64,000 nt of DNA from a virus: positions 124,001 through 188,000 of IMG/VR virus record IMGVR_UViG_3300025364_000003; one strand, 5' to 3'. Below the pieces are notes generated by a model, which did not search any database, had not been told where the DNA came from, and saw only the letters and a list, made by a program, of their open reading frames with translations. This document shows positions 16,206-64,000 of this stretch, piece after piece (the stretch's first letter is position 1; the number at the start of each line of letters is the position of its first letter). A program made the translations under genes and the position numbers.

Positions 16206-17276
16206 ATGCCAGCAAAATCACAAGATCAGCAGCAGGCCGCCGGAATTGCATTGCAGGCCAAAAGAGAAGGCACTGTGGACGAGCTACCCAGCGGTTCAGC
16301 TTCCAAAGAAATGGCCAAATCGATGACTAAAAAGGAATTGGAAAAACTGGCTGGAACAAAACATAAAGGGTTGCCAAAAGACATAGACGAGTCCAAAACA
16401 TGGGCCGGCTCGTCGTTAGTAGCTGTTTTCAAGGAGGAAATGCAAGGCGTTTCTGACCAAGACGATGAAGAAGAACAAATCACAACACAAAAATCCAAGG
16501 TAGAACGTTTGAATGATCGAGAAATTGGCACCGGCAAAGGCACAGAAGATACTTGGACTTCTACTGCTGGAGGAACTGCACCAGCCATTGCCAATAACGC
16601 TCGTAGTCCGATGACTTCAAATACTGCCGGTGCACGTGTTGCCGAGCAAGTAAAACTTTCAACCGGCAAGGAAACATGTCCAGCATGTGACGGCACTGGC
16701 CTGAAGGATGGCAGAGATAACAGACCAGCTCCTATGTGGCAACCGGATCTCTGTCCTGTTTGCCTTGGAAAAGGCGAGGTAGAAACAGGAAAAGAACTTG
16801 AAGAAATTCATGCTTCAAACAAAATAAATGAAACAATTAATCTCAGCAGGTGGCAACAGCTTGCAGGACTTAAAGTTGTTTCTGAACTTTTAACAGAAAA
16901 AAAAGAAAAGCGGGTGCAAAAAGCCGTGGACTCAAAAGCAGGTCAGGCAAAGCCTAATAAAGCTGCTAAATCCGTAGCAAAAGAAAGCACTTCATTTGAA
17001 GAAGTGTTAAAATCTCTTTTTAAAGAAGGAACGACTACAGAACAGAGATATTTTGATACCAATCAGGACGAAATTGGTGAAGGCAGAAACCCAAATAGCC
17101 TTGACATCGTTTTTGAAATGGACACAGCTCAGGCAAAAAATTATGTTAGTCGATTAGCAAAACATGGCTGGTCCTGGGACAAGGTTGCAGAACAACTAAA
17201 AAACCAATATGGAGTCAGGCCATATGAGATCGACAAAGTGTTGTTTCCTCATTGGAAAGAAGTAACTGGTCAATGA
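16206..17276 (+). CDS. DUF3008-like protein with DnaJ-type zinc finger
   Basis: This 356-residue protein starts MPAKSQDQQQAAGIALQAKR and continues with 'MTKKELEKLAGTKHKGLP' near residue 37. This matches the small DUF3008 family found in phages. Near residues 157-190 there are two C-x-x-C-x-G-x-G elements (CPACDGTG and CPVCLGKG), as in the DnaJ zinc-binding domain. The rest is charged linker plus a C-terminal domain (AQAKNYVSRLAKHGWSWDKV). Two segments resemble the shared tag ends (VVSELLTE and SLFKE|GT). A virion-associated role is possible. Confidence 0.75.
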   Translation: MPAKSQDQQQAAGIALQAKREGTVDELPSGSASKEMAKSMTKKELEKLAGTKHKGLPKDIDESKTWAGSSLVAVFKEEMQGVSDQDDEEEQITTQKSKVERLNDREIGTGKGTEDTWTSTAGGTAPAIANNARSPMTSNTAGARVAEQVKLSTGKETCPACDGTGLKDGRDNRPAPMWQPDLCPVCLGKGEVETGKELEEIHASNKINETINLSRWQQLAGLKVVSELLTEKKEKRVQKAVDSKAGQAKPNKAAKSVAKESTSFEEVLKSLFKEGTTTEQRYFDTNQDEIGEGRNPNSLDIVFEMDTAQAKNYVSRLAKHGWSWDKVAEQLKNQYGVRPYEIDKVLFPHWKEVTGQ

Positions 17277-36066: not shown

Positions 36067-36074
36067 CTACTTAA
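36067..36074 (+). promoter_or_regulatory. CTACTTAA junction motif
   Basis: Its last base is the A of the ATG at 36074. Found in the 26-base divergent gap between the matrixin and the multidomain ART-like gene. If the motif were a -10-type element the first start codon would be too close, so either the start is further in or the motif has another role. Confidence 0.25.
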
Positions 36075-38617
36075 TGAAAGCAATGTCTTCCAAGAACAAA
36101 AATAATAATTGGGAAAAGCAATTCCGTGAACTTGAAAAAAGGGCGGTTAGACATGAACAAATTTTACAAGAGGCTGGTTATGCTGGAGGCCCGAGTTCCG
36201 TTGATGGGTCTGCAACTTTCAGGGGAGGCCCATACGGTTTTGGAGGCGTAAATCAACTGGCTGCTGGTTTGTCTGAGCCGGTAAAGAAGTTGAAAAAACA
36301 AAGAGATGAGGAAGCGGTTTATAACATTGCAAGCCAACAAAGAATAAATCGTGGGTACCCGGCACCACAATCCGTCACAGGATTTCCCGGTGGTGAATCT
36401 AATTCCGGCATTCGCTCTGGACAGCATTTCCCCACAGAAATTGAACCAATAGCAGTTTCTTCCGACGACCTTTCAAAAATGGCTGCTGACGAAGATCCAA
36501 CAGATGACTATTTTGGCTTTGATGATGATGAATTAGAAGACATGAAAGATAGGTCAGACAGAGGGCTGAAAGAATTTGGAGTATCAGGTGCTCAAGGAGC
36601 TATGAGAGGTGTTCCTTCAGACAAGAATTATCGTGACCTTCCTGGGTGGCCACGTCACAATTCGCTTGAGAAACCCGGCAACTTCGTTCCAGAAATTGAA
36701 GGAGACGAAGATGGGGATGGCGAAGAAGATGACTACTTGACCGATGAGGAATACGTCAATGACGTGCTGCGTTTGAATGGCATGGGGGTTAAACCCGGTC
36801 ATCTCAAAAAATTGTTTGGTCAGGGTGGGCTTGAGGAATCAGCTCTCTATGAGCGCACGCTTTATCATGGAACTGTGATTGATCACAAGGACAGCATAGA
36901 GCAGTATGGCCTCACGGGTGAACTTGGAGACTGGGTAAAAGATGCTTACGGTTTGGAACTGGATGAAGAAGACTGGGAAGAACAACTTGGTGGTATAACT
37001 TTCGCTGCTCAAAAGAGCGACATGAGCATGGCTGTTGGAGCGATGCGTTTTCACATTGGCAAGAAGCTGGGAAAGTCACTGAGGGATGTAACAATTGAAG
37101 ATATTCGTCGCTGGGGTATGTTGGTTGTCATAAAAGATGTCGAAGAAGAAGACGATTCATATGGCGACGGGTGGAAACAGCGTCCACCACATGGGCAAGA
37201 AGGCTATTATGATGAATATCCTGTTTCTGTAGAGCCTGGTGATTGGTTTACTAAAGAACAAGTGTACATCGATCATGTTCTTACAGGTGGTAAACTAATT
37301 GACTTCCTTCGTCGACATGGAGCACTCAGACATGTTACTTCGCAAGTAAAAGAAGACAAAGAAGCAGCTGCACGAAGAGAGTTGATCAAACTTGCAGTTG
37401 CTTATCATGATCCCAAGTATCGGGATGATATTGTAAATAAAGTAAAGCAGCTGTCTGGGAAAATGCTGCAAAAGCAACTTGAAAACTACAGAGATATTGA
37501 AGAAGCACATGAAACCATTGCTCAAAAGAGAGCGCAAAGATACGGCGGGACTGCGCAAAAGCAGCGAGGACAACAGCTAAAATTTGATTTTGGGGAAGCG
37601 CTAAGTTTGAAAAATGTATTTCTAGAAACGTATGTTGCTCCCCCCTATGGTCCAGAACCCGACAAAGGAACAGAGCATTACAAGCGTGGGAATTGGGAAG
37701 AAACTCCAATAGGAGATGATTGGCTTATTAATCCAGTCGATCATTCTGGTGGTCATGCTGAAATGCCAGCAGCAAAACATAGTCCTGGCAGACAAGCTTA
37801 TGGACAAATAGGTTCTCCTAAAGACTTTGTACCTGAAGACTGGGAGCAGAGACATTCCAAAACAAAAGAGGAACCAATGGATCCAGAAGAACTGAAAAAA
37901 TTTATCGAATCTGTTGTTAAGGAAGCAATCAGAGAAGAAAGAGTGAACGAAGAAGACTTGGTTGAAGGTTCGAAAAATGAACCAACCAATCCAGAACTTT
38001 GGTCTAGGGCAAAAGTAGCAGCAAAGCGTAAGTATGATGTATATCCGAGCGCTTATGCTAACGCTTACGCTAGTAAATGGTATAAAGACAAAGGTGGTGG
38101 CTGGCGCAAAAAGAAAAAACCCAAGAAAGAATCTCTTGAGAATATCATTCGAAATCTCGTTAAAGAAGAAATGGGCGTTCAAGAAAAAGTTCACAAAGAT
38201 AGCGGTCTTGGAAAATGGTTTGGAGAAAAGTGGGTTGATATCTCCAGAAAGAAAAAAAGCGGTGGACATCCTGAATGTGGCGCCTCGGCTGACAAGGGTA
38301 AAAGAAAAAGTGATAGTTCAAAAGCATACCCAAAGTGCGTGAAGAAGTCAAAGGCGCAATCCATGACCAAAAAGGAAAAAGAAAGTGCTACTCGCCGTAA
38401 AAGAGCAAAGCCTAACAAACCTGGAAAGCCTGACAACACAGCCACAGACAAGACAAAAAAAGAAGCATACACTGGCATTGACGACAAAACAGGTCGTGGA
38501 GAACCAAAAGGTGGCAGTAAGGCTTTTCAAAAAAGTCGTAAAAAAGTTTTTGACTACGATGAAGAACACAAACCCAAGGGAATTGAGGATTTGAAAAATT
38601 ATCACATGGATGATTAA
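36074..38617 (+). CDS. multidomain virion protein: ART-like domain, two internal tags, DUF5872-type C-terminus
   Basis: This 847-residue protein has an acidic N-terminal third, an ADP-ribosyltransferase-like core near residues 258-420 ('TLYHGTVIDHKDSIEQYGL', 'GGITFAAQKSDMSMAVGAMR' and an 'EYPVSVEPGDWF' strand with a candidate Glu), a helical region, then two copies of the shared tag placed internally ('LKKFIESVVKEAIREE' near 610 and 'LENIIRNLVKEEMG' near 685). Between them lies 'LWSRAKVAAKRKYDVYPSAY', a segment seen in marine phage proteins. The end is a Lys-rich DUF5872-type region ('WFGEKWVDISRKKKSGGH', 'YPKCVKKSKAQSM'). Tags before each domain suggest proteolytic separation in the capsid. 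The ART catalytic triad is not proven. Confidence 0.75.
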   Translation: MKAMSSKNKNNNWEKQFRELEKRAVRHEQILQEAGYAGGPSSVDGSATFRGGPYGFGGVNQLAAGLSEPVKKLKKQRDEEAVYNIASQQRINRGYPAPQSVTGFPGGESNSGIRSGQHFPTEIEPIAVSSDDLSKMAADEDPTDDYFGFDDDELEDMKDRSDRGLKEFGVSGAQGAMRGVPSDKNYRDLPGWPRHNSLEKPGNFVPEIEGDEDGDGEEDDYLTDEEYVNDVLRLNGMGVKPGHLKKLFGQGGLEESALYERTLYHGTVIDHKDSIEQYGLTGELGDWVKDAYGLELDEEDWEEQLGGITFAAQKSDMSMAVGAMRFHIGKKLGKSLRDVTIEDIRRWGMLVVIKDVEEEDDSYGDGWKQRPPHGQEGYYDEYPVSVEPGDWFTKEQVYIDHVLTGGKLIDFLRRHGALRHVTSQVKEDKEAAARRELIKLAVAYHDPKYRDDIVNKVKQLSGKMLQKQLENYRDIEEAHETIAQKRAQRYGGTAQKQRGQQLKFDFGEALSLKNVFLETYVAPPYGPEPDKGTEHYKRGNWEETPIGDDWLINPVDHSGGHAEMPAAKHSPGRQAYGQIGSPKDFVPEDWEQRHSKTKEEPMDPEELKKFIESVVKEAIREERVNEEDLVEGSKNEPTNPELWSRAKVAAKRKYDVYPSAYANAYASKWYKDKGGGWRKKKKPKKESLENIIRNLVKEEMGVQEKVHKDSGLGKWFGEKWVDISRKKKSGGHPECGASADKGKRKSDSSKAYPKCVKKSKAQSMTKKEKESATRRKRAKPNKPGKPDNTATDKTKKEAYTGIDDKTGRGEPKGGSKAFQKSRKKVFDYDEEHKPKGIEDLKNYHMDD

Positions 38618-51742: not shown

Positions 51743-52489
51743 GTGTTACTCAAAGAATATATAAACTATCAAGTTGCTAGTGTCTTGCTCGAAATCAGAG
51801 GCACGTTCAAGTGGAATGAATTTAAGGCACTTAGTACCCTAGACCAAAAACTTCAATACGCTCAACAACATCTCAAGGAGCTTGGAAGAGGTAGCAGCAG
51901 GGCTGCCTTCCTACTAAGCAATCGATATGTTTTAAAGATTGCCCTTCCTCAAGCGGCAGAAAAGGGAATGGGGCAGAACAAAGGCGAGCTTCAGGTCTTT
52001 GCTAATACGGCAAGCAAGAATTATGTAACCGCTATTCATGACGCTGGCGAAGATGGCCATTGGCTCGTTTCAGAAATTGCACGACCACTTGCAAGCACAG
52101 AAGAATTTCAGAAGCTCACAGGGGTTCCCTGGGAACAGTTTGTTTCTATACTGAAAAATCATGAAGATATCAAGAGTGAATTTAGCGAGATCGAACAGGG
52201 CATTCAAATGTGGTCTCGTCGTCTCAAAAATGCTCAATCGCAGGGTAATGAAGCGGGTATTGACAAGTTTACAAAGAACGTTCAAAACCTTCAGCAAAGA
52301 AAAACAAACCTTCAAAAAATGTTAAATTCACCAGTGGTACAAGGTGCTCTTGCTTTGATGAATCAAGCTGGTGTTATGCGTGGTGATATTCTTGAAGTGG
52401 ATCATTGGGGCAAAACCGCTGATGGTCGTGTAGTTCTATTAGACTACGGCTTTACAGAGGACTTGGTTGACCTTTACCGAGCTGCATGA
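51743..52489 (+). CDS. tagged protein-kinase-like protein 1
   Basis: A 248-residue protein, GTG start. Residues 1-20 are a variant of the shared tag (YINYQVASVLLE|IR). The kinase-like pattern follows: Gly-rich loop 'LGRGSSRAAFLL' at 47-58, 'YVLKIAL' with the probable ATP-binding Lys at 65, a Glu helix (GELQVF), hinge 'GHWLVSEIARPL', catalytic loop 'RGDILEVDHWGK' in the place of HRD-xxxx-N with Asp for Asn, and 'VVLLDYG' for DFG near 230. It is the first of three tandem paralogues. Substrate unknown; packaging with the DNA is inferred from the tag. Confidence 0.75.
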   Translation: MLLKEYINYQVASVLLEIRGTFKWNEFKALSTLDQKLQYAQQHLKELGRGSSRAAFLLSNRYVLKIALPQAAEKGMGQNKGELQVFANTASKNYVTAIHDAGEDGHWLVSEIARPLASTEEFQKLTGVPWEQFVSILKNHEDIKSEFSEIEQGIQMWSRRLKNAQSQGNEAGIDKFTKNVQNLQQRKTNLQKMLNSPVVQGALALMNQAGVMRGDILEVDHWGKTADGRVVLLDYGFTEDLVDLYRAA

Positions 52490-53283
52490 TGAGACTGAAA
52501 GAACAAATACGCTTCATGGTTTTTCAAACACTTCATGAAATTAGGAGTAATTTCAAGTGGTCTGAATTTAAAAAGATAGATGATCACTTTGACAGGGCCT
52601 TGTACCTTATAAACACTGGTACTCAAGTATTAGGGGAGGGAACTTCACGTCTTGTATTTTTGTTAAGCAATAGGTTTGTGCTCAAACTAGCCCAACTAGC
52701 CCAACCTCTTCCACGTTCTCCTCGTAGTTTTGAGAGAGGGAAGGCGCAAAACAAATATGAAGTAGATTTGTCTACCGATCCAGATGTAAAACCAATTGTG
52801 GCCGAAGTCTATGATGCGGCCGATGATTACTCGTGGATTGTTTCGGAGTTGGTTCGACCAATAAAAAATATAAATGAATTTAAAGATTTAACTGGGTTTT
52901 CGTTCACTGATTTTCGCCAGGTTCTTAAACTTGTTTTTGAGGGCGAACTTGAAAATACCATTGAGAAACATCGCAAATTGCGACAGAGGTATATCGAAGA
53001 GATCAATCGACTTGACTCTGAAGATACGGCCGATAAAACAAATATTGAATACTACAAAAGCCAACTTGAGGCTATTGAAAAAGTTATTGAATATCAAACT
53101 GAATTACCCGAACACCCAATGGTACAAGCTGCTATTGAATTAATTTCTGATAAGGGTGCAATGGCTGCCGATATGATCGTGTTAGACCACTGGGGCAAAA
53201 CTGCCGATGGCCGTGTAGTTTTGTTGGATTATGGTTATTCGAGAGATGTAGCTAGAAAACATTATGATGTTACGTGGATCTGA
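52486..53283 (+). CDS. tagged protein-kinase-like protein 2
   Basis: A 265-residue paralogue coupled to gene 1 by ATGA. Tag 'QIRFMVFQTLHE|IR' at the N-terminus, then 'FKWSEFKKIDDH', 'LGEGTSRLVFLLSNRFVLKL', 'YSWIVSELVRPIKNINEFKD', a longer insert helix, 'AADMIVLDHWGKTADGRVVL' and 'LDYG'. The HRD-type Asp and DYG are retained. The region from DHWGK to DYG is almost identical in all three copies, which suggests strong constraint on the active site. Confidence 0.75.
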   Translation: MMRLKEQIRFMVFQTLHEIRSNFKWSEFKKIDDHFDRALYLINTGTQVLGEGTSRLVFLLSNRFVLKLAQLAQPLPRSPRSFERGKAQNKYEVDLSTDPDVKPIVAEVYDAADDYSWIVSELVRPIKNINEFKDLTGFSFTDFRQVLKLVFEGELENTIEKHRKLRQRYIEEINRLDSEDTADKTNIEYYKSQLEAIEKVIEYQTELPEHPMVQAAIELISDKGAMAADMIVLDHWGKTADGRVVLLDYGYSRDVARKHYDVTWI

Positions 53284-53307
53284 ACAAACAAAATCATATA
53301 TATTGTT

Positions 53308-54017
53308 ATGTTAGTTGCAAATCTTAAAGAACAAATACATTTCATGGTGTCGCAAACTCTTTTAGAAATTAGGAGTAATTTCAAGTGGTCGGAGTTTAAA
53401 GAACTTGAAACTCCTAAGGGAATGGCATATTACCTAGAAAAAACAGGCACCGAAAAACTAGGCAGCGGGTCTTCTAGATGGGTTTACTTATTGAGCAACC
53501 GCTATGTCTTAAAATTAGCTGATCCTTTAAATCCTCGTAGGGGACTGGCCCAAAATCATGCAGAACTTGAAGTTGCAACCGACTCAGTGTAGCTCCATTC
53601 GTGTCGCAAATTTTTGATTATGATCCTGATGGTTTCTGGTTGGTATCTCAACTTGTTAGACCATTGAATAGCGATGAAGATTTTGAAAAACTAACTGGTG
53701 GAATCGACTGGGAAGCATTTCAGTATGCCGTACAAACTTTTTTGTATGAAGCTAGGGGGGATTTTAAAAAAGCTGCTGATGAACTTGAGTTTAGGGCATC
53801 AAGGAGAAATTCTGATCATTATGCAGAAGTATTACTCAAGGCTCTTTCATATCTTAAGACAAACAAGTGGGTGAGAAATTTTCTAAAAATGGCAAAAAAA
53901 TACGATTTGCTTCCAGAAGATTTAACATTTTTAGATCATTGGGGCAAAACCGCTGATGGACGTGTAGTGCTTCTTGACTATGGTTATACGGCATTAGTTC
54001 ATGATCTACACTACTGA
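53308..54017 (+). pseudogene. tagged kinase-like protein 3, frameshifted
   Basis: The third paralogue reads from ATG at 53308 through 'QIHFMVSQTLLE|IR', 'LGSGSSRWVYLLSNRYVLKL' and 'AQNHAELEVATD', then hits TAG at 53590. In the neighbouring frame the homology continues without a gap ('VAPFVSQIFDYDPDGFWLVS', 'LPEDLTFLDHWGK', 'VVLLDYG') to TGA at 54015. One missing base near 53588 explains it. The C-terminal part alone is open from 53601. I see no heptameric slippery site. The result is a recent inactivation or a sequence error; the rest is intact. Confidence 0.7.
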
Positions 54018-61563: not shown

Positions 61564-61668
61564 ATGAAGGGTCTACTCCACCGTTTAATAAATCTTTTCA
61601 ACTCTGAGCACTGTTGCTGCTGTTGTGGCTGCTGTCAGTGCCGGAACTGCAAGGGCAGCTGTAAGTGA
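61564..61668 (+). CDS. cysteine-rich mini-protein, 34 aa
   Basis: ATG at 61564, preceded by AGAGAGG, to TGA at 61666-61668. The product is MKGLLHRLINLFNSEH followed by 18 residues with ten cysteines, including five consecutive Cys and the pattern C-x-C-x-x-C-x-x-x-C. The stop overlaps the GTG of the next gene (GTGA). An amphipathic N-terminal helix plus a metal-binding or disulphide-rich tail is a plausible form. Its place straight after the sheath genes suggests a virion or assembly role. No family known to me. Confidence 0.7.
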   Translation: MKGLLHRLINLFNSEHCCCCCGCCQCRNCKGSCK

Positions 61669-62519
61669 ATGATAGGGATAGAATACAAGGATTCATTTCT
61701 GACTTAGTCAAAGAAGAATTGACTGAGGTATCTCCTGTATTTTATCCCACAATCAAAAAGGGAATAGAAGCTGGCCGTGAGGCTTCTCGTAGACAGGCTT
61801 CGGCCTACAGGGGAAGGCACGGCCAAACCTTTTCTGATGAACTTGCTCAAATACGTCGAGATTCCAAGCGTAAAAGGGATAGGCATCATAAGATGCTGTC
61901 GCTTTCCAAGCATCTGAAAAAAGTTTTCGGAAATAATGCATATGGTGGCTCTGCACTTGCCACTGTAGAAATTTCTAACGATTTTAAAGCTGATGTTAAA
62001 GCTGAATTTGTGAGCGTTATGGGAATTGATAATGTCAAGTTTGTAGTTTCAATAAAGAAAAACGGCAAAGAAATTCTTACCAAAGAATTTGTTGCTGGAT
62101 TAGGGGCAAAACAAAGTGTAGCAAGGTTCATTAAGAAATTTCAGGAAAAATTGCAAGAGGATGCAGCAATGAAGGTTACGAAAGCGCAACTAAAAGAAAT
62201 GGTCCGCAAGATCATTAGAAAAAAATTAACAGAAATGGATCTTGGTGAAAAAAGTCGATCTACTACAGGGGCTGACAGGAGGATGAGTCCATCTCAACTT
62301 GAAAAGCATCTTGAAAAGGAAAGAGAAAGATCAAAACAAGCCAAGGTTGTTAAAAAACGACAAGCAATGAAGCAATCGGCTCGTGGTATGGAATTAGAGA
62401 GTCGCATAGATATTGATCGAGATGTTGACAACGAAGAAATGGTTGATGCTAAAGAAGAAGAATATCTTACCAAGCTCGAAAAGTTAATTCTTCAAAGTGA
62501 AAAGGAAGGGCTTTGCTAA
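61665..62519 (+). CDS. doubly tagged protein, 284 aa
   Basis: GTG start overlapping the mini-protein's stop. The first tag is N-terminal (IQGFISDLVKEELTE|VS). A second complete tag, with its own Met, sits at about residues 169-189 (QLKEMVRKIIRKKLTE|MD). Between them lie a basic stretch and a small beta domain (FKADVKAEFVSVMGIDNVKF). After the second tag comes a charged helical tail. Either an internal start at the second Met yields a short form, or the protein is cut in two during head maturation. Confidence 0.75.
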   Translation: MNDRDRIQGFISDLVKEELTEVSPVFYPTIKKGIEAGREASRRQASAYRGRHGQTFSDELAQIRRDSKRKRDRHHKMLSLSKHLKKVFGNNAYGGSALATVEISNDFKADVKAEFVSVMGIDNVKFVVSIKKNGKEILTKEFVAGLGAKQSVARFIKKFQEKLQEDAAMKVTKAQLKEMVRKIIRKKLTEMDLGEKSRSTTGADRRMSPSQLEKHLEKERERSKQAKVVKKRQAMKQSARGMELESRIDIDRDVDNEEMVDAKEEEYLTKLEKLILQSEKEGLC

Positions 62520-62520
62520 A

Positions 62521-63078
62521 ATGACTACTATAAAACAAATAATTGAAGAAGCTGTCAAGGAAGCACTTGACCCAGTTGGGAAAACTGAAACGGGGAAAAA
62601 GGTAGGGGTCGGTCAAATTCGTGACATCGACAACGATGGTGATATTGATAGTTCTGATGCGTATCTTGCATATCGTCGAAAAAAAATTACACAGGCAATG
62701 AAAAAAGAAGATCGTGAACTCAATGAAAAAACAATGACTTGGGGTGATCTTCCATCGGAAGATGTTTTTGAAGATTTAATGGATGGCAAAGCTTTCAACA
62801 TGAAACTTCAGGGTGCCGACTCTCTTGCGTTTGAATATGCCATGACTCTATCTGATAATCCAGGAGCGGGAAGTACAGCATCTGCGGGCAGTCTTAGAGC
62901 TACCATAGAAGCCCTTATCAACGCTCCAGAGCCAGACGAACTTTCTGATGACCAATACGAAGAGGTTGAAAATGTTCTTGACGAATGGAACGACAGATAC
63001 GGGGATGTGAGCATTGAAGAAACTGCGTGGTCTTTGGCTTCTGGTATTATGGAAGTCCTTGGAATTGAATGGATTTGA
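62521..63078 (+). CDS. tagged protein with dockerin-like calcium motif
   Basis: A 185-residue protein from MTTIKQIIEEAVKEALDP (a degenerate tag lacking the final L-x-E). Residues 33-50 are 'IRDIDNDGDIDSSDAYLAY', a dockerin/EF-hand-type calcium loop (D-x-D-x-D-G-x-(I/V)-x-x-x-D). The C-terminal 110 residues are acidic and helical (LSDDQYEEVENVLDEWNDRY). Similar dockerin-tag combinations occur in marine phage proteins. Function unknown. Confidence 0.75.
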   Translation: MTTIKQIIEEAVKEALDPVGKTETGKKVGVGQIRDIDNDGDIDSSDAYLAYRRKKITQAMKKEDRELNEKTMTWGDLPSEDVFEDLMDGKAFNMKLQGADSLAFEYAMTLSDNPGAGSTASAGSLRATIEALINAPEPDELSDDQYEEVENVLDEWNDRYGDVSIEETAWSLASGIMEVLGIEWI

Positions 63079-63087
63079 TAGAGTAAA

Positions 63088-63582
63088 ATGCCAAAGAGTA
63101 AATATCCAAAAAGCGTACAAGATCTACCAGAAGACGACTACAGTCAGTGGACGGCAGTTTATCACAGTGCACGTGACGGGGGCGACAGCAAAGAAACCGC
63201 AGCAAAAAAAGCTTGGGGTGCTGTTAAGGAATCCGGCTTGCAAGAAAGTGGTGAAGATAATCCATGCTGGGATGGTTACGAAATGGTCGGTATGAAAACC
63301 CAAAACGGGAAAGAAGTACCTAACTGCGTTCCGAAAAATGAATCAAAAAAACCTGTACGTATTTCAAAAACGCAGCTTAAAGAAATGGTAAAGCGGGCCG
63401 TTAGAAATCAATTACAAGAGGCTTCCACTGTTCGAAAGCGTCAAATGATACTTGATCGGTTTAGAACCGAAGCAAACCTTTCAACTTATGAATTGCTAGA
63501 AGACGTCCTTGAATTCATTGATGAAAAGACTTGGCAGAAAGTATTGCAGGGCATTGGTAACAAATATGGTTATCGACTTTAA
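63088..63582 (+). CDS. ChaB-like protein with internal tag
   Basis: A 164-residue protein. Residues 7-50 follow the ChaB pattern ('SVQDLPEDDYSQWTAVYHSA', then 'ETAAKKAWGAVKE'). A small motif 'DNPCWDGYEMVGMKTQNG' and 'VPNCVP' follows, often seen in phage virion proteins. Then comes an excellent tag copy (TQLKEMVKRAVRNQLQE|AS) at about 92-108 and a helical C-terminal domain. If the prohead protease cuts after the tag, the protein becomes two pieces. Confidence 0.75.
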   Translation: MPKSKYPKSVQDLPEDDYSQWTAVYHSARDGGDSKETAAKKAWGAVKESGLQESGEDNPCWDGYEMVGMKTQNGKEVPNCVPKNESKKPVRISKTQLKEMVKRAVRNQLQEASTVRKRQMILDRFRTEANLSTYELLEDVLEFIDEKTWQKVLQGIGNKYGYRL

Positions 63583-63654: not shown

Positions 63655-64000
63655 ATGAAGCTTAATAGAACACAATTCAAGAAAATTTTAAAAGAGTGCA
63701 TCAGAGAATTAATAACAGAAGGTGCATTTGACAATGTAATCAAAGAAAATGTTCAACCAGTTGCTGCAACAGCTAGGGTTGCTCCAAATGATTTTGTAGG
63801 ACAGGTTACTAAAAATTCTACCACGGCGCAACCACCATTCTCTTCTGTTGGTCATATGACACCAAATGAAAGACTTAGGGAACTTTCTCGTATTGCAGCT
63901 ATGCAGACCGCTCAAGGTGACCCAAAACAAGCTGCAATGATGGAAAGTATTTTTGCAGACACGGCAATGACGACCCTACAATCGCAACTTGGAACAGAAA
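63655..64000 (+). CDS. tagged protein, partial (runs off the window)
   Basis: ATG at 63655 opens a frame that stays open to the window edge (115 codons). It begins MKLNRTQFKKILKECIREL then ITE|GA, a textbook [LI]-x-E|G cleavage site. The visible remainder is helical and Thr/Gln-rich (RELSRIAAMQTAQGDPKQAA). AACAGG upstream is a weak ribosome binding site. The C-terminus is not visible, so its function is not assignable. Confidence 0.8.
   Translation, partial: MKLNRTQFKKILKECIRELITEGAFDNVIKENVQPVAATARVAPNDFVGQVTKNSTTAQPPFSSVGHMTPNERLRELSRIAAMQTAQGDPKQAAMMESIFADTAMTTLQSQLGTE

Follow-up and report, generated by a model that had tools for sequence, protein, structure and literature searches.

The site at which gp21 of phage T4 cuts takes the general form [LI]-x-E. 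The capsid targeting sequences of T4 guide cargo and are then cut off, and the logo of the gp21 site includes LIE-9 as an example (PMC9026906). Papers on T4 (PMC9026906), P1, and SPN3US (PMC10052503) describe targeting or processing at the N-terminus, with a few C-terminal cases. Polyvalent proteins form a further point of reference, as they have been compared with viral polyproteins and their embedded peptidases have been stressed (PMC5512222). The DNA analysed here, referred to as the window, is a stretch of 64,000 nucleotides that corresponds to positions 124001-188000 of the 206,528-base virus record IMGVR_UViG_3300025364_000003. In it, short peptide tags separate domains that other phages encode as individual genes, so that several packaged proteins may come from a single gene. 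Window features given below in the form start..end are on the + strand.

The genome yields roughly 306 proteins, called by a simple ORF search and not by a trained gene finder. Outside the window it encodes a gp21-type prohead protease (Peptidase_S77, PF03420, 78.6 bits against a cut-off of 27, E 6e-22), which also matches the head maturation protease PHROG 207 (E 1e-44), and a gp23-type major capsid protein (PF07068, 264.6 bits, E 2.5e-78); tail sheath genes are present inside the window. Among the phage-collection records with the nearest capsid proteins are Flavobacterium phage immuto, Microcystis phage Mel-JY01, Rhodothermus phage RM378, and two uncultured phages. Together, the protease, the capsid protein, and these records point to a T4-like phage, though a distant one, whose head maturation protease is of the T4 type. 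The capsid gene is preceded by a scaffold-like gene whose ends are common to immuto gp067 and a Mel-JY01 protein.

Ten distinct and otherwise unrelated genes of the genome carry an N-terminal tag scoring at least 22 bits, and N-terminal tags of the same type occur in the cultured relative immuto. A tag HMM seeded with N-terminal tags only was searched against the approximately 306 genome proteins from residue 36 to their ends, where internal matches of at least 10 bits were returned for 200910 (31.6 bits), 63088 (20.6), 61665 (15.9), and the first tag of 36074 (10.5). Protein 200910 was itself a seed of the profile, and its tag begins at an ATG, which suggests that its start was called too far upstream; with 200910 set aside, the proteins of the 206-kb record that hold genuine internal tags are exactly 61665, 63088, and 36074. 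The 63088 tag was not a seed. Sixty shuffled proteomes gave no match of 10 bits (the top shuffled score was 8.9), on which basis chance is rejected as the origin of the internal tags, and a wider set gave seven matches of at least 10 bits versus 0.1 expected. At 5 bits or more there are six real matches versus 0.35 expected; the second tag of 36074, at 5.5 bits, is marginal by score alone and is supported mainly by its position between two protein families. All 17 of 17 tags end in [LIVM]-x-E, versus 7.9 expected with shuffled tails, a sequence motif that agrees with the site cut by T4 gp21, although [LIV]-x-E is also common in E-rich proteins, which counts against reading it as a cleavage site. 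By eye, an [LIV]-x-E site directly before the CW domain looked frequent among 23 instances of that domain. Another viral locus, L014/L021, has the order DUF3008, tag, CW domain, indicating that tags between modules reach beyond the lineage of the window phage. The CW domain, internal elsewhere, comes straight after a T4-like N-terminus in L171; the cyanophage proteins L171:6459-6821 and L172:4400-5584 begin with such N-termini (MKTFNQFQAE and MKSLFQFLSE).

The 284-aa ORF 61665 (61665..62519; identical in L010) is made up of two tagged modules. Its N-terminal tag, NDRDRIQGFISDLVKEELTE (residues 2-21, 61668..61727, found with the tag HMM), is followed by module A (residues 22-168, 61728..62168), the internal tag MKVTKAQLKEMVRKIIRKKLTE (residues 169-190, 62169..62234), and module B (residues 191-284, 62235..62516); both tags had been placed by the sequence-only reading, the second near residue 170, and the profile finds them there. 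One close relative was available for comparison for this ORF and for 63088, namely L011, a contig of IMG/VR 3300000478. Its gene order matches that of the window, with a tail sheath gene, a Cys-rich mini-ORF, and homologues of 62497, 63088, and 63655. The mini-ORF (34 aa, 61564..61668, from three-frame translation; MKGLLHRLINLFNSEHCCCCCGCC...; CCCCCGCC) ends in a TGA stop that overlaps the GTG start of 61665. The gene after 61665 (62497/62521-63078) has the N-terminal tag MTTIKQIIEEAVKEALDP (62521..62574, tag HMM), which is kept in L011, and the gene at 63655..64000, with the N-terminal tag MKLNRTQFKKILKECIRELITE, extends beyond the window end and is complete as L008:1655-2146. At the L011 locus, residues 1-168 of 61665, that is, the first tag and module A, are absent, and module B is a free-standing tagged gene (L011:4071-4421) that starts at the ATG of the internal tag and is 57% identical to the window copy, tag included. 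Searches of viral contigs, of the phage collection, and of the contigs of the relatives found no relative of module A. This comparison strongly supports the view that the internal tag of 61665 lies at a junction of joined genes.

The second example is 36074 (36074..38617), a multi-module ORF of 847 aa, for which two lineages of close relatives were compared, L090 (64%) and L091/L092 (37%). Profile scans with 36074, module B, and 63655 turned up no new lineages. Internal tag 1, MDPEELKKFIESVVKEAIREER followed by VNE (residues ~602-623, 37877..37942), precedes cargo module 1 (...PSAYANAYASKWYK..., 37970..38110), and internal tag 2, ESLENIIRNLVKEEMGVQE (residues 682-701, 38117..38176), precedes cargo module 2 (GLGKWFGEKW..., residues 711-796, 38186..38413). 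The modules match PHROG 27331 (over residues 643-685) and PHROG 23735 (over residues 711-796), respectively, nearly end to end, and in 45 other, distinct viral loci they are adjacent separate genes of ~60 and ~80 aa in different frames, so each of the two 36074 tags precedes an otherwise independent gene product. Alignment with L090 and L091 bounds the cargo slot by a conserved stretch ending KTKEEP and by the C-terminal domain EAYTG (EAYTGIDDKTGRGEP..., 38462..38614). Between these limits the window has tag, module 1, tag, and module 2; L090 has one tag, joined directly to the C-terminal domain, and no cargo; and L091 has a tag, a HicA-toxin domain (PF07927, 39.6 bits, cut-off 27), and another tag-like stretch. 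The L091 homologue (L091:4962-7553) also has a further insert (ADLWAGHSRGVDRL...) after SLKSVFFE. It is thus strongly supported that the internal tags of 36074 mark junctions between joined genes and that cargo in this slot has been swapped among relatives. The sequence-only reading had put tags near residues 610 and 685, of which the first is borne out by its score and the second by its location. Its domain labels fared less well: the ART-like domain has no Pfam match and no PDB sequence match, leaving a YHGT motif seen by eye, and the proposed DUF5872-type part has no Pfam match but matches PHROG 27331 nearly end to end, with PHROG 23735 matched by the part after it.

ORF 63088 (63088..63582, 164 aa) consists of a ChaB-like part, an LQE site, a CW domain (CWDGYE..PNCV), a tag, and a helical C-terminal domain. 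That its tag follows a ChaB-like domain had been proposed from the sequence and holds, with the tag, RISKTQLKEMVKRAVRNQLQE, at residues 91-111 (63358..63420) and the ChaB match (PF06150, E 8e-4, 20.4 bits) below the 27-bit cut-off. In L011, at 64-68% identity, the pattern of the internal tag is kept (LKVTKEELKRMVREAVREQLLE; aligned as KVTKEELKRMVREAVREQLLE) though the letters differ, and in both phages the LQE site separates the ChaB-like part from the CW domain. The occurrence of the 63088 parts as independent genes elsewhere is less clearly supported than for 61665 and 36074, and we regard them as probably joined. AlphaFold models of 36074 and 63088 (mean pLDDT 38 and 50) were too poor to use.

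A second motif, R-[WLR]-x-x-L-A-G-[LIVMK], is found near the N-termini of several genes at 194-205 kb (genome 194848-205099) and also at the C-terminus of the scaffold-like protein that precedes the capsid gene (genome 188750-191011, equivalent to L008:2750-5011). The counterparts in immuto (gp067) and Mel-JY01 finish with related C-termini, SRWQKLAGIIK and VERMKKLAGIVK. A terminal motif common to cargo-like genes and a core protein suggests that these tags may act through the prohead core. A candidate for an internal tag of this second type is the ORF at 16206..17276, in which DUF3008 and a CxxCxGxG zinc-finger-like part are followed by the tag (SRWQQLAGLKVVSELLTE, residues ~205-233, with the motif at residue 215) and a C-terminal part. 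Two further observations concern tag-like stretches and similar N-termini. The 841-aa immuto protein gp079 (L180:14006-16531) has repeated ESVNE/ESLNE-like sites and, by eye, a tag-like stretch between domains, with EEG directly after it, that the tag HMM does not match. Tandem genes at 51743-54017 of the window have similar N-termini (LKEQIRFMV..TLHEIR and LKEQIHFMV..TLLEIR) and bodies (RVVLLDYG), apparently a duplicated family.

We suggest that the fused, internally tagged ORFs are cargo polyproteins in which each internal tag would serve as a head-targeting and protease signal for its module, a reading that we give a slightly better than even chance of being correct. The tags would be peptides that direct proteins to the head and finish with a site at which the gp21-type prohead protease of the phage itself cuts. 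Most cargo genes would bear a single N-terminal tag, while in 36074 and 61665, and probably in 63088, small tagged cargo modules would have been fused into a single reading frame, with the tag of each either retained or newly acquired. The tags would draw the fusion protein into the prohead core, where the protease would cut after the [L/I/V]-x-E of each tag and yield several separate packaged proteins; those of 36074 flank a slot where cargo changes between relatives. As no clear N-terminal tag of this type is present on 63088 or 36074, some other route would have to bring in their first parts. It is possible, though we put this a little short of an even chance, that the whole forms a head-packaged cargo system, in which effector modules such as the HicA toxin of the relative are each preceded by a tag, swapped in the slot, and freed by the prohead protease inside the capsid before injection. 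The sequence-only reading had already taken the internal tags as a sign of possible polyproteins. Its modular premise stands at the junctions of 61665 and 36074, the protease that it needs is encoded, and the [LIVM]-x-E motif ends every tag; a targeting role for the tags, cutting within the fusions, and entry of every product into the head are inferred.

Alternatively, the Met at a tag may be a second start codon, with one ORF giving a long product and a short tagged product and no cleavage between modules. We consider this unlikely as the full explanation, but at the second tag of 61665, where it had been raised as an alternative from the outset, it is realistic. There the internal tag starts at an ATG with AGAGGA upstream, and the module B gene of L011 begins at the equivalent ATG. 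Tag 1 of 36074 likewise has an ATG with AGAGGA upstream, in a DNA context that is the same in L090, and T4 gp21 has a functional internal start of its own (PMC9026906). Among 840 internal ATGs of the genome, AGAGGA precedes only these two, Met169 of 61665 and Met602 of 36074, but the motif was picked post hoc, and a ranking by anti-SD duplex energy puts the two sites 109th and 91st of 840, only in the top 11-13%. L091, moreover, has no Met at the position matching Met602. Neither the tag of 63088 nor tag 2 of 36074 has a start codon, so internal initiation is unable to explain these and is rejected there as the sole cause; of the four internal tags, it is plausible at the remaining two. Cleavage and internal initiation may also operate together.

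The tags could also be docking helices that are never cut, several of which in one chain would bind the prohead core more tightly, so that the full-length fusion is packaged as a polyvalent effector. Conservation of the tag as a pattern more than as letters would fit such a role, and multi-domain polyvalent proteins can be delivered unprocessed (PMC5512222), but we think it rather improbable given the [LIVM]-x-E at the end of every tag and the presence of a gp21-type protease, and it leaves unexplained why a complete gene product that stands alone elsewhere should follow a tag. That the fusions are recent accidents (e.g., through loss of the stop codons that separated tagged neighbours) and the internal tags relics without a role is very improbable, for although close relatives differ in fusion state, L011 keeps the 63088 internal-tag pattern at 64-68% identity, tags between modules also occur in the separate lineage of L014/L021, and one tag-flanked slot holds different cargos.

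If the cargo polyprotein reading is correct and internal tags are cut, a single phage gene would give rise to several packaged proteins. The tags would then amount to a rule for predicting injected proteins and their cut positions in uncultivated T4-like phages, and the arrangement would represent a cassette route to injected effectors, with cargo inserted beside an existing tag. A search by sequence string and keyword of the main text of openly available papers found no earlier description of internal tags between cargo domains. Of the known systems, the polyvalent proteins of phages and plasmids (Iyer et al. 2017, PMC5512222) likewise carry several unrelated effector-like domains per chain, a make-up seen here in the two PHROG families of 36074 and the HicA domain of L091. 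They differ in the peptidase, which is frequently, though not universally, embedded in polyvalent proteins: domain-profile searches found no peptidase domain in 36074, 61665, or 63088, whose processing is predicted to come from the prohead protease acting on repeated tags. The head proteins of SPN3US and phiKZ with long propeptides (PMC10052503) offer the precedent of one head protein cut several times by a prohead protease. The extra cuts in SPN3US, however, break up propeptides, and several packaged products per gene were not found reported in that work (PMC10052503). The nearest likeness is to the capsid targeting sequences of T4 IPI-III and Alt, which are cut by gp21 (PMC9026906): here too a short N-terminal peptide with an E-site is common to varied cargo that lies behind it, and the window phage has both a gp21-type protease and a gp23-type capsid protein. 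Unlike its T4 counterpart, the peptide of the window phage is longer, at about 20 residues, and also sits between domains within one protein.
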